From Planctomycetota bacterium (lineage in GTDB: Bacteria > Planctomycetota > Planctomycetia > Pirellulales > Lacipirellulaceae): 64,000 nt of DNA. The stretch lies in assembly GCA_029259945.1 (NCBI GenBank), contig JAJDEF010000012.1, positions 186,001 to 250,000 of the forward strand, given 5' to 3'. The first letter of the stretch is position 1. The number at the start of each line of letters is the position of its first letter. This document shows positions 19,774-62,248 of the stretch, in pieces. The position numbers and the translations under genes are program-made. The notes beneath the pieces are model-generated. The model saw nothing but the letters and a program-made list of their open reading frames with translations. It made no database searches and was not told the origin of the DNA.

Positions 19774-19936
19774 CAGGAGCACTGCAAAGTCGGGACGATC
19801 AATCAAAAGACAGGAAAAGATCTACCACAGAGCCACAGAGAGCACCTGAAAATAAGCTTTTCTCCGTATTCTCTGTGCCCTCTGTGGTTCAGTTAATTTT
19901 TTTATTTCAGACAATTGCGACTTTGCAGTTCGACTG
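19774..19936 (-). mobile_element. Miniature palindromic element, copy 1 (CAGG...ACTGCAAAGT ends)
   Basis: This 163-bp non-coding element matches 61133-61308 over its whole length when read on the minus strand; in the aligned 53-base left part about 47 positions agree. Its ends are imperfect terminal inverted repeats containing ACTGCAAAGTCG (19781-19792 and inverse at 19918-19929), preceded outward by CAGG or CAGT. Inside lies a second palindrome of the ACCACAGAG type (about 19824-19888). It holds no reading frame of note, and no target duplication is obvious at this copy. Confidence 0.75.
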
Positions 19937-20422: not shown

Positions 20423-20494
20423 TTACCGCAGAGGACGCGGAGAGCGCAGAGAAAATGCCTCTCTCATTGTTTCCTCTGCATTCATCCGTGGTTA
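20423..20494. repeat. CACAGAG-family imperfect hairpin
   Basis: Between the pterin dehydratase and the oxidoreductase, ACCGCAGAGGACGCGGAGAG is followed 40 bp later by an inverse-related arm (CCTCTGC...CCGTGGTTAA). It belongs to the same broad family as the hairpins at 27751-27861, 34982-35040 and 61110-61373 but is more decayed. It is non-coding. Confidence 0.55.
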
Positions 20495-27750: not shown

Positions 27751-27861
27751 GAACCACAGATGAACACAGATAGACGCAGATATTTGGGAGGCAAATTACG
27801 ATTGCAGTTCTGGCTGTGTCTTGATCTGAATTTGTGTTTATCCGTGTTCATCTGTGGTTTC
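27751..27861. repeat. CACAGATGAACAC-family inverted repeat
   Basis: Arms at 27751-27782 (starting GAACCACAGATGAACACAGA) and 27837-27861 (inverse, containing GTGTTCATCTGTGGTT) bracket about 55 bp of non-coding DNA after the terpene-cyclase-like gene. The arm sequence is the same as that of the repeat at 61110-61373, which has been split by a second element. Confidence 0.8.
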
Positions 27862-34981: not shown

Positions 34982-35040
34982 TAGCCACAGAGTTCACAGA
35001 GAACTCAGAGACTCTTTTATCTCGGTGTTCTCGGTGGCTA
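34982..35040. repeat. CACAGAG-family hairpin
   Basis: TAGCCACAGAG at the left and its near-exact inverse CTCGGTGGCTA at the right bracket about 37 bp. The outermost 11 bp match at 10 positions. It is non-coding and related to the repeats at 20423-20494 and 61110-61373. Confidence 0.7.
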
Positions 35041-60025: not shown

Positions 60026-61030
60026 ATGGCTGCAACAATTTACTACGACAAAGATGCCAACGCGAAAGCTCTCGAAGGCAAAACGGTAACGATTCTTGGC
60101 TACGGCTCGCAGGGCCACGCCCATGCCCAAAATCTACGCGACAGTGGGGTAAAGGTCGTCGTCGGCCAACGCCCCGGCAGCGCTAACTACGAATTGGCCG
60201 TCAGCCACGGGTTCGAACCCCTGCCGATCGAAGAAGCCACGAAGCAAGGCGATCTGGTCAACATCTTGCTACCCGACGAGGTGCAGGGCGACATCTATCA
60301 AAACCAAATCCGCGACAACCTGCAGCCGGGCAACATCCTGATGTGCTCGCACGGGTTTAATGTCCACTTCGGGCAGGTCGAAGCACCCAAGGGCGTTGAT
60401 CTGCTGCTGGTGGCTCCCAAGGGCCCTGGCCACTTGGTGCGTAGCGAGTATACCGCTGGAGGCGGTGTCCCTTGTCTAATCGCGCTGAGCGACGATGCCG
60501 CTGACACAACCTTCGAAGCAGGCCTTGCCTATGCCAAGGGCATCGGAGGAACCCGAGCGGGAGTCATTCGCACCACCTTTGCCGAAGAAACCGAAACCGA
60601 TCTCTTCGGCGAGCAAGCCGTTCTCTGCGGTGGTGCTGCCGCGTTGGTAAAAGCTGGTTTTGAAACCCTGGTCGAAGCGGGCTATCAACCCGAGATGGCT
60701 TACTTCGAATGCATGCACGAGCTGAAGTTGATTGTCGACCTCTTTTATCAGGGTGGGCTCAACTACATGCGTTACAGCGTTTCGAACACGGCCGAGTATG
60801 GCGACTACACCCGTGGCCCACGGATTGTGACCGACGAGACCAAAGCCGAGATGAAACGGATTCTCGAAGAAATCCAGAGTGGCGAATTCGCCCGGCAATG
60901 GATTCTCGAAAACAAAGCCGGCGCCCCGGCGTTCAAAGCGACGCGCCGTCGCGAGCGCGAGCATGGTGTCGAAACCATCGGCAAAGAGCTGCGAAAGTTG
61001 ATGTCGTGGATCGACGAAAAAGAAGTTTGA
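60026..61030 (+). CDS. ilvC: Ketol-acid reductoisomerase
   Basis: A 334-residue class I KARI. It converts acetolactate or acetohydroxybutyrate to dihydroxy acids in valine, leucine and isoleucine synthesis, using NAD(P)H and Mg2+. The Rossmann motif [17 protein letters not shown] is at about 26-42; the QRPGS that follows carries the cofactor-phosphate determinants. The C-terminal knotted domain has the metal ligands in ETDLFGEQ and the conserved [12 protein letters not shown]. Length equals the family standard. It lies 102 bp downstream of ilvN, so an ilvNC unit is likely. Confidence 0.96.
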
Positions 61031-61109: not shown

Positions 61110-61373
61110 GAGATTAGCCACAGATGAACACGCAGGTGAACTGCAAAGTTGCAATTGCATGAAATAAAATGAAATTAATTGAACCACAGAGGGCACGGAG
61201 AACACTGAGAAAAGCTTGTTTTCAGGCACTCTGTGCTGCTCTGCGTCCTCTGTGGTAAATTCCTCTTCCTGTCTTTTGATTGATCGTGCCGACTTTGCAG
61301 TCGTCCTGAGATGAACACGGATAAACATTGATTTTAACAAGCATCTGTGCCTATCCGTGTTCATCCGTGGTTT
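61110..61373. repeat. CACAGATGAACAC-family inverted repeat interrupted by a second element
   Basis: TTAGCCACAGATGAACACG (ending 61132) and, after the inserted element, AGATGAACACGGATAAAC (from 61309) rejoin into one arm. The inverse arm (TATCCGTGTTCATCCGTGG) lies at about 61352-61370. Without the insert this would be a hairpin of the same type as 27751-27861. It occupies most of the 417-bp gap between ilvC and the next gene; the rest of the gap shows nothing. Confidence 0.78.
61133..61308 (+). mobile_element. Miniature palindromic element, copy 2, flanked by 11-bp direct repeats
   Basis: This 176-bp non-coding element begins CAGGTGAACTGCAAAGT and ends with the imperfect inverse (ACTTTGCAGTCGTCCTG); the 17-bp ends match at 14 positions. 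It is directly abutted on both sides by AGATGAACACG (61122-61132 and 61309-61319), an exact 11-bp direct repeat as left by transposition. An internal ACCACAGAG palindrome spans about 61183-61257. It matches copy 1 (19774-19936) throughout, in inverse orientation. No coding capacity; it would need a transposase supplied elsewhere. Confidence 0.82.
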
Positions 61374-61447: not shown

Positions 61448-62248
61448 TTACGATCCCGAAATACTCTGCTGCGCGTAGCGCTTCGCTGCGGTTCTTGCTT
61501 GCTCGTCGCCGGCCAGGTAGACGGTTAGTGGGGCACAGATATTCGCCCATGTTGCTGGTTGCTTGATCCACAGGAATTTTTCCTGGCCGGTCGCTTGGCA
61601 ACAAACCCGCAGGGAGTCGCCGCGCCACTCCTCGGGCACCACAAAACGCACGGTCAGTTCATGCACCCCTTCGAGCGACGTTAGCGGGGAACTTCGCCAC
61701 TTGAAAAACACTCCGTGCTCTTGGCCTAGTGTGCCGCTTACCACCACGACTTGTTTTGGTGCCACTCGCTTTTGCGTTTCGGTCACTACTTCGCGGTGCG
61801 CCAGCTTGCCGTTGACCGTGGGAGTGATGTGGGCGACCACATCTCCCAAGAGGACGGGCACCTCACCCCCGAGCGAAGCCCCAATTGCTTTGCCTGTCTC
61901 GACGGTTTTGGTCCAGTGAATCGCTTCGCTAAAATTACTCTCCAACTGCGTGCTTGGCTCGAAACTGTGAACTCGCATTCCCAGGTCGTAGTCGCCTACT
62001 TCGATGTGAATCTCTTCGACCTTGGCAAGATTCCCGGCAAGCAAATGCACCGACACTCGGAGCTTGAGCTCGACAATTTTCTCGCCTGGGTAAAGATTGG
62101 CTGCGACTTCGGAAGTGACGTCGCGACACTCGGCCGTTCGTCCGAAGTCAAAAGCGAGAGACGGGTCTTCAGCTAGCGAAATCTGCCCTTGGATGGCTAA
62201 CAAAAAACAGAGCGGCAGCGCTCGGAGTCGAAAAAATAGCGCAGGCAT
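61448..62248 (-). CDS. Secreted protein of unknown function
   Basis: I do not recognise the family. The 266-residue protein has a signal peptide (LRALPLCFLLAIQGQISLA) and a mature region with beta-strand-like alternation. Short phrases such as ECRDVTSEVAANLYPGEKIV and FFKWRSSPLTSLEGVHELTV are the most distinctive. The C-terminal 20 residues are charged and helical. It is a single gene on the minus strand. An intergenic 9-bp stem (CCTCGGCGC at 62280-62288 with its inverse at 62301-62309) lies just upstream of its start. Confidence 0.72.
   Translation of the reverse strand: MPALFFRLRALPLCFLLAIQGQISLAEDPSLAFDFGRTAECRDVTSEVAANLYPGEKIVELKLRVSVHLLAGNLAKVEEIHIEVGDYDLGMRVHSFEPSTQLESNFSEAIHWTKTVETGKAIGASLGGEVPVLLGDVVAHITPTVNGKLAHREVVTETQKRVAPKQVVVVSGTLGQEHGVFFKWRSSPLTSLEGVHELTVRFVVPEEWRGDSLRVCCQATGQEKFLWIKQPATWANICAPLTVYLAGDEQARTAAKRYAQQSISGS

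Follow-up and report, generated by a model that had tools for sequence, protein, structure and literature searches.

The 176-bp element at positions 61133 to 61308 of the window (the whole 64,000-nucleotide stretch of planctomycete DNA that was analysed) is very probably a non-autonomous MITE, built on the ends of ISAs1-family insertion sequences (IS) and presumably moved by an ISAs1 transposase acting in trans. Comparison between genomes shows a multicopy family with common ends, target duplications and mutually unrelated cores, and full IS in which the same ends enclose an ISAs1-family transposase. The analysis adds that the same ISAs1-type ends, in related bacteria, surround at least six unrelated classes of core, mostly hairpins.

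The element, its site and its copies in the same genome

An earlier note on this DNA had described a 176-bp element with imperfect inverted ends between exact 11-bp repeats, and the sequence bears this out. With the element read on the + strand, its left terminal inverted repeat, CAGGTGAACTGCAAAGTTGC (61133-61152), is of the type that bounds full ISAs1 elements; the right one (61289-61308) reads CAGGACGACTGCAAAGTCGG on the − strand. The outer ends are CAGGTGAACTGCAAAGT and, on the opposite strand, CAGGACGACTGCAAAGT, and the 17-nt ends (61133-61149 and 61292-61308) are 82% complementary. On either side stands the 11-bp repeat AGATGAACACG, at 61122-61132 and 61309-61319. The interior holds a 74-nt hairpin core, ACCACAGAGGGCACGGAG ... 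CTCTGCGTCCTCTGTGGT (61183-61256), referred to here as class B. The whole element folds strongly (MFE −69 kcal/mol, z −6.6), and no transposase gene fits in 176 bp.

The element starts 103 bp beyond the end of a gene (60026-61030) that we take, from the appearance of its protein, to be the amino-acid gene ilvC; the next gene, 61448-62248, is convergent. It interrupts a hairpin of another class, class A (CCACAGATGAACACGG...), with the first part of the left arm at 61118-61132 and the rest of that arm, the loop and the right arm at 61309-61370, a segment whose first 11 bases are the right copy of the duplication. With host hairpin, transposon ends and core hairpin, the locus thus has three layers. 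The second copy of the host hairpin that the earlier note had seen at 27751-27861 is real; it is uninterrupted, runs from 27753 to 27858 and has no ISAs1-type ends around it. The window also holds a second copy of the MITE, 163 bp long and on the − strand (19774-19936, right boundary set from the sequence), which has no recognisable target duplication. Single class B hairpin arms, with three mismatches each, were seen at 20425-20442 and 34984-35001.

The assembly from which the window comes (G000; 3.48 Mb, 44 contigs, 92% complete) gave 55 matches to the element at E≤10. Some 20 are complete or almost so, and the copies other than that of the window are 81-90% identical to it. Alignment of 30 loci fetched from these matches showed ends and core to be common to them, and 19 of the 30, those with both ends recognisable, could be scored for target duplications. 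Four were exact at 10 bp and one, the window copy, at 11 bp; the other 14 had no exact 10- or 11-bp duplication, and none of 342 cross-pairings was exact at either length. Mean identity between flanks was 57% at length 10, 42% at 11 and 20-31% at other lengths, and 24-26% for cross-paired flanks. On these figures the ends cannot be put down to chance. Judging by the divergence of the copies and the decay of their duplications, the family is probably old in this genome.

Full ISAs1 elements and the length of the target duplication

Congeners, and also a different genus of the same family, yielded full ISAs1-type elements for comparison. One congener (G005) carries an IS of 1243 bp between facing ends, with an exact 10-bp duplication (actaacattc) and a transposase in two frames that score 94 and 57 bits with the ISAs1 model NF033564 (cut-off 70 bits). 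In a second congener (G004), an IS again of 1243 bp has perfect ends, an exact 11-bp duplication and a two-frame transposase (100.5 and 54.7 bits), and a 1250-bp IS in G019 has an exact 10-bp duplication. A member of another family (G045) encodes the transposase in a single frame of 406 aa (148 bits) between perfect ends; this copy runs to the contig end, which makes its duplication unscorable. The apparent 11/11 duplications of this locus (L140) and of L147 and L148 are contig-end artefacts and were left out of the counts. The ends at L138 (G004), L117 and L137 (G005) and L140 are CAGGAGAACTGCAAAGTC or one mismatch from it. Duplication lengths also match: of the three IS that could be scored, two have 10 bp and one has 11 bp, and the MITEs have 10 bp with an 11-bp minority. 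The earlier note had spoken of a non-autonomous, MITE-like transposon of an unnamed family. The first part holds, given the copy number, the inverted ends, the consistent duplication length and the lack of room for a gene; the family can now be named as ISAs1, since this is the transposase family encoded by full IS that share the ends and are flanked by duplications of 10 or 11 bp.

Remnants were found as well: a 349-bp element in G084, which lacks a duplication, has related ends around what by eye looks like the C-terminus of the transposase, and G007 has one end and part of a transposase. A search of solved structures with the G045 transposase returned no match at E≤0.01. In G005 and G004 the two transposase frames overlap (L117, 1266-2413; L138, 920-2049) and are split at about the same point, while that of G045 is single; this may reflect shared decay or a frameshift signal.

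The contigs of G000 themselves gave no match to NF033564 at E≤1 and no homologue of the nearest IS protein at E≤1e-20 in this 92% complete assembly. Its copies are thus probably relics, with no activity at present. MITEs can outlive their autonomous partners, and a partner in the same genome is not strictly required. ISAs1 homologues were detected at E≤1e-20 in 10 of 97 genomes, G000 not among them, and 25 of the 97 hold eight or more matches to the end pattern, which means that many genomes with the ends lack the partner. In G000 a single PF01609 gene was found, the C38 fragment; it was rejected as a partner, as it adjoins TGCTCTGTCGAAAACCT, an unrelated end.

When GTDB genomes were scanned for the two inner ends at a spacing of 101-161 bp, 77 stretches came up, 73 of which were scorable (one was lost at a contig edge and three for short flanks). 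Most of the named records are planctomycete MAGs or a single Chloroflexota MAG (JAKOPZ). Exact duplications were found for 29 elements at 10 bp, four at 11 and four at 9, and for none of 5256 cross-pairings of the same 73 elements at 9 bp or more. The Chloroflexota MAG accounts for 28 of the 73, including 19 exact at 10 bp and all four exact at 9. Its outer ends are different (such as TAAGGC or CAAGGC, with 27 of the 28 departing from CAGG by more than one base at an end); the inner ACTGCAAAGTC, which the scan pattern demanded, is the same. Its loci (L162 and others) showed many near-identical MITEs, which have 9-10 bp duplications and, as core, a GTCATTTCGA hairpin. Without this MAG, 10 of 45 elements are exact at 10 bp and 4 of 45 at 11, and the remaining 31 have no exact duplication of either length. 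Among 77 sites chosen for having a duplication, 39 were exact at 10 and 8 at 11, and no target consensus was visible by eye in the 39 exact 10-mers. The characteristic duplication is 10 bp, with 11 bp as a minor form; the 11-bp length that the earlier note had called unusual does occur in the family. Matches to the end pattern number up to 161 per congener, versus at most 3 for the reversed control, and viral contigs gave none to the end-pair pattern. A pair in Chamaesiphon (L203), whose ends differ and which shows no duplication, probably does not belong to the family.

Transposition would proceed as follows. Acting in trans, an ISAs1 transposase would recognise the ends over about 18-20 bp (CAGGnnRACTGCAAAGTC) and cut the target with a stagger of 10, sometimes 11, bp; the element would insert, and repair would leave a duplication of 10 or 11 bp. 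The DNA between the ends would be a passenger, a CACAGAG-type hairpin in G000 and other cores, mostly hairpins, in relatives. About 100 bp downstream of ilvC, the window copy would have entered the left arm of a different repeat hairpin, probably by chance. Cores may be exchanged by recombination between copies, or by ends closing around a resident hairpin.

The target site and alternative origins

At the window site the direct repeat is ambiguous on its own, because the host class A arm is itself composed of units of about 10 bp. The arm might have held two tandem units already, the element having arisen or entered there without duplicating its target. An in-phase two-unit arm is indeed as good a fit to class A arms as the duplication model, or a better one (a mean of 4.5 versus 5.9 mismatches over 29 nt, better in 15 of 21 arms and tied in 4), though to reach this fit one further base must be taken away: flanks joined unchanged, with both repeats kept, fit worse than with one removed in 21 of the 21 arms compared. 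The opposite arm of the same hairpin slightly favours the duplication model (9 versus 11 mismatches), and duplications of 10-11 bp flank kin elements at many other sites, so that we hold two pre-existing units to be very improbable. As the site alone leaves the choice between models undecided, reading the repeat as a target duplication draws on the family and not on the window site. The earlier note had regarded the hairpin rebuilt by removing the element and one repeat as strong evidence of insertion. Insertion is supported, by the family; the rebuilding argument is weakened by the 10-bp period. A direct repeat beside an insertion in a periodic hairpin does not, taken alone, prove target duplication.

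Empty sites in relatives, the other check that the earlier note had put forward, did not come to its aid: no orthologous empty hairpin was found at 12 congener ilvC loci (76-82% identity). Within 1200 bases past the ilvC match, these loci showed neither an end (best 6-8 mismatches of 18) nor a class A arm (best 6-8 of 19); in one of them, L116, the ilvC match ends at base 659. The congeners are too distant for an empty-site comparison at ilvC. At the ilvC locus of G008 (L105), a class B arm matches with 4 mismatches, and ilvC is followed by a plain stem and then T's, by eye resembling an intrinsic terminator, which occupies the place of the hairpin and MITE of G000.

Two further explanations concern the hairpins themselves. 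The MITE could be retained by the host as a transcription terminator between convergent genes, which would account for hairpin cores, and indeed the window copy folds strongly and lies between ilvC and the convergent gene 61448-62248. Among the 39 usable sites, however (47 less 6 inside open frames and 2 unscorable), only 4 are in convergent gaps, versus 26 among 113 gaps of the background (p 0.10, and against the predicted direction), and no terminator-like site was called within 61133-61308; we consider such a role unlikely. A preference for hairpin targets was rejected too: empty sites fold less strongly than control windows (mean −29.5 versus −33.5 kcal/mol, n 75 and 369), and landing in a hairpin thus looks like chance. 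Convergent-gene enrichment, hairpin target preference and a terminator-like call in the element all being absent, no sign of a host function was found. In the second explanation the element is a palindrome of REP/BIME type that owes its spread to a tyrosine transposase (RAYT) and not to a DDE transposase. The strong fold would agree with it, and hairpins of such a kind are widespread. REP/BIME repeats mobilised by RAYT are not known to show a target duplication, however, and the duplications found here largely refute this origin; the fixed inverted ends also argue against it, as does their occurrence on full IS that encode an ISAs1 transposase, making it extremely unlikely. The window element was in fact rejected as a REP/BIME, for it has CAGG/CCTG ends and the family's 10-11 bp duplications in place of the GTAG or CGTC tag described for one end of such repeats in the available text of PMC3733652. 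Rfam returned three matches at E≤1, all far below their gathering scores.

Cores, ends and known systems

Sequence comparison indicates that near-identical ends enclose at least six unrelated classes of core in elements with duplications, most of these cores being hairpins. Planctomycete elements that have these ends and duplications of 10-11 bp contain cores of the CACAGAG, ACAACG, CGCCAAG, TTGGCATAGC and CCAATGACC classes, and in G076, G068 and G084 the same ends hold palindromes of the GGGGTCAGGC type. The GTCATTNCGA class (29 pairs in the Chloroflexota MAG, with outer ends of its own) is a more distant case. A looser collection of 135 end pairs, in which each end could have as many as 4 mismatches and which contains overlaps and a few chance pairs, fell into seven core classes, labelled by keyword matches, plus others; six of the classes have members with duplications. 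When 13 representative cores were compared at E≤0.01, the only cross-matches were between B and B2 and between D and D2, both same-class pairs. Relative to mononucleotide shuffles, 55 of 76 distinct cores from duplication-bearing elements fold with a z below −3, and in some classes, TTGGCATAGC for one, structure is not pronounced; hairpin cores are therefore usual and not required. One CGCCAAG-core MITE (L132, G011:C161:10440-10998) was seen inserted, with an exact 10-bp duplication, into what is apparently another MITE with a CGCTAGCG hairpin core.

The window MITE shares its ends and 10-11 bp duplications with full elements of the ISAs1 family (NF033564; PF13808 plus PF01609), and differs from them in having a hairpin for an interior and no transposase. 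ISfinder records duplications of 8-10 bp for ISAs1, which places 11 bp just outside the range. Other prokaryotic MITEs (RUP, NEMIS, Nezha, QMITE2) are, in the portions available of PMC10969869 and PMC3733652, likewise short, non-coding and mostly intergenic, with inverted ends and duplications; what sets the present family apart is that a single set of ends goes with many cores unrelated to one another. The main text of the review PMC10969869 makes no mention of ISAs1. The hupL MITE of Thiomargarita, compared by its description, likewise has 10-bp direct repeats, together with 19-bp inverted ends; its authors, in the part of PMC4853749 available, found no parental IS in ISfinder and linked it to a PD-(D/E)XK transposase. 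An ISAs1-derived MITE with hairpin cores was not described in the accessible text of PMC9208149, PMC3542288, PMC5756416 and PMC9330008.

The hairpins also occur outside these ends. Those of the CACAGAG and CGCCAAG classes are scattered across the planctomycete genomes searched. In G000, 25 of 28 class B hairpins have ISAs1-type ends on at least one side and 16 on both, with a query that included the ends and so favours end-bearing copies; L063, below threshold, looks like a decayed copy of this kind. Only 3 of 18 class B hairpins from relatives have the ends, all three within the same genus, and ISAs1-type ends were absent around each of 11 class A hairpins in G000. Across 97 genomes, the count of CGCCAAG arms does not follow that of ends (arms versus ends: 318 vs 10 in G034, 1 vs 263 in G052, 0 vs 37 in G000). 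In the open-licence literature, searches with hairpin and end strings returned no such bacterial repeats among the matches listed (best 15 of 119 and 25 of 327), and no mobiliser was named there for CACAGAG or CGCCAAG hairpins, which is a weak absence. With at least six core classes inside one set of ISAs1-type ends that have 10-11 bp duplications, ISAs1 becomes a likely mobiliser for part of these common and so far unexplained bacterial hairpin repeats.

A different vehicle was met in G001, where a class B hairpin lies in a 172-bp element bounded by a perfect 17-bp inverted repeat of another kind. This repeat matches, with 1-2 mismatches, the ends of a 978-bp IS5-like element of G005, GGCTCTGTAGAAAACCT, which are unrelated to the ISAs1-type ends. 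The transposase of the 978-bp element scores 131.4 bits, below the NF033579 cut-off of 140, and 69 bits with PF01609; its duplications, of 9 bp, are exact in 2 of 3 full copies and match at 8 of 9 positions for the G001 element. The same class B hairpin thus seems, from this one case, to be carried by two unrelated vehicles. The three 978-bp copies (L284, L294, L304) have identical first and last 40 nt, and one of them lies in GACTCCCGACCC-type sequence, which also flanks a 133-bp relative in G010 (L299).

Tentatively, naked hairpins with periodic arms of 9-10 bp (ACCACAGAGGACACAGAG, ACCGCCAAGGACGCCAAG, ACCACAACG..., ACCACAGATGAACAC...) might form a general class of passengers that has no single mobiliser and is repeatedly captured and spread by transposon ends that are unrelated to one another (those of ISAs1 type and, in at least one case, of IS5 type), MITE ends and cores being separately evolving, exchangeable modules. 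From the core classes found inside ISAs1-type ends, an ISAs1 transposase is predicted to move any of these cores, and cores to change ends.

No transposon ends were visible by eye around the class A hairpins of G000 (L235-L264, and 27753-27858 in the window), for which ISAs1-type ends had been searched. These hairpins have arm ends of the ACC...GGT type, a period of about 10 bp and unrelated loops of about 10 to over 300 nt. By eye, hairpin repeats are nested in one another at L083, L073, L075, L087 and L259, with conserved arms and unrelated loops: class B hairpins have others inside them, of the CCAATGACC type or otherwise periodic, and two more are apparently contained in a class A hairpin of 391 nt.
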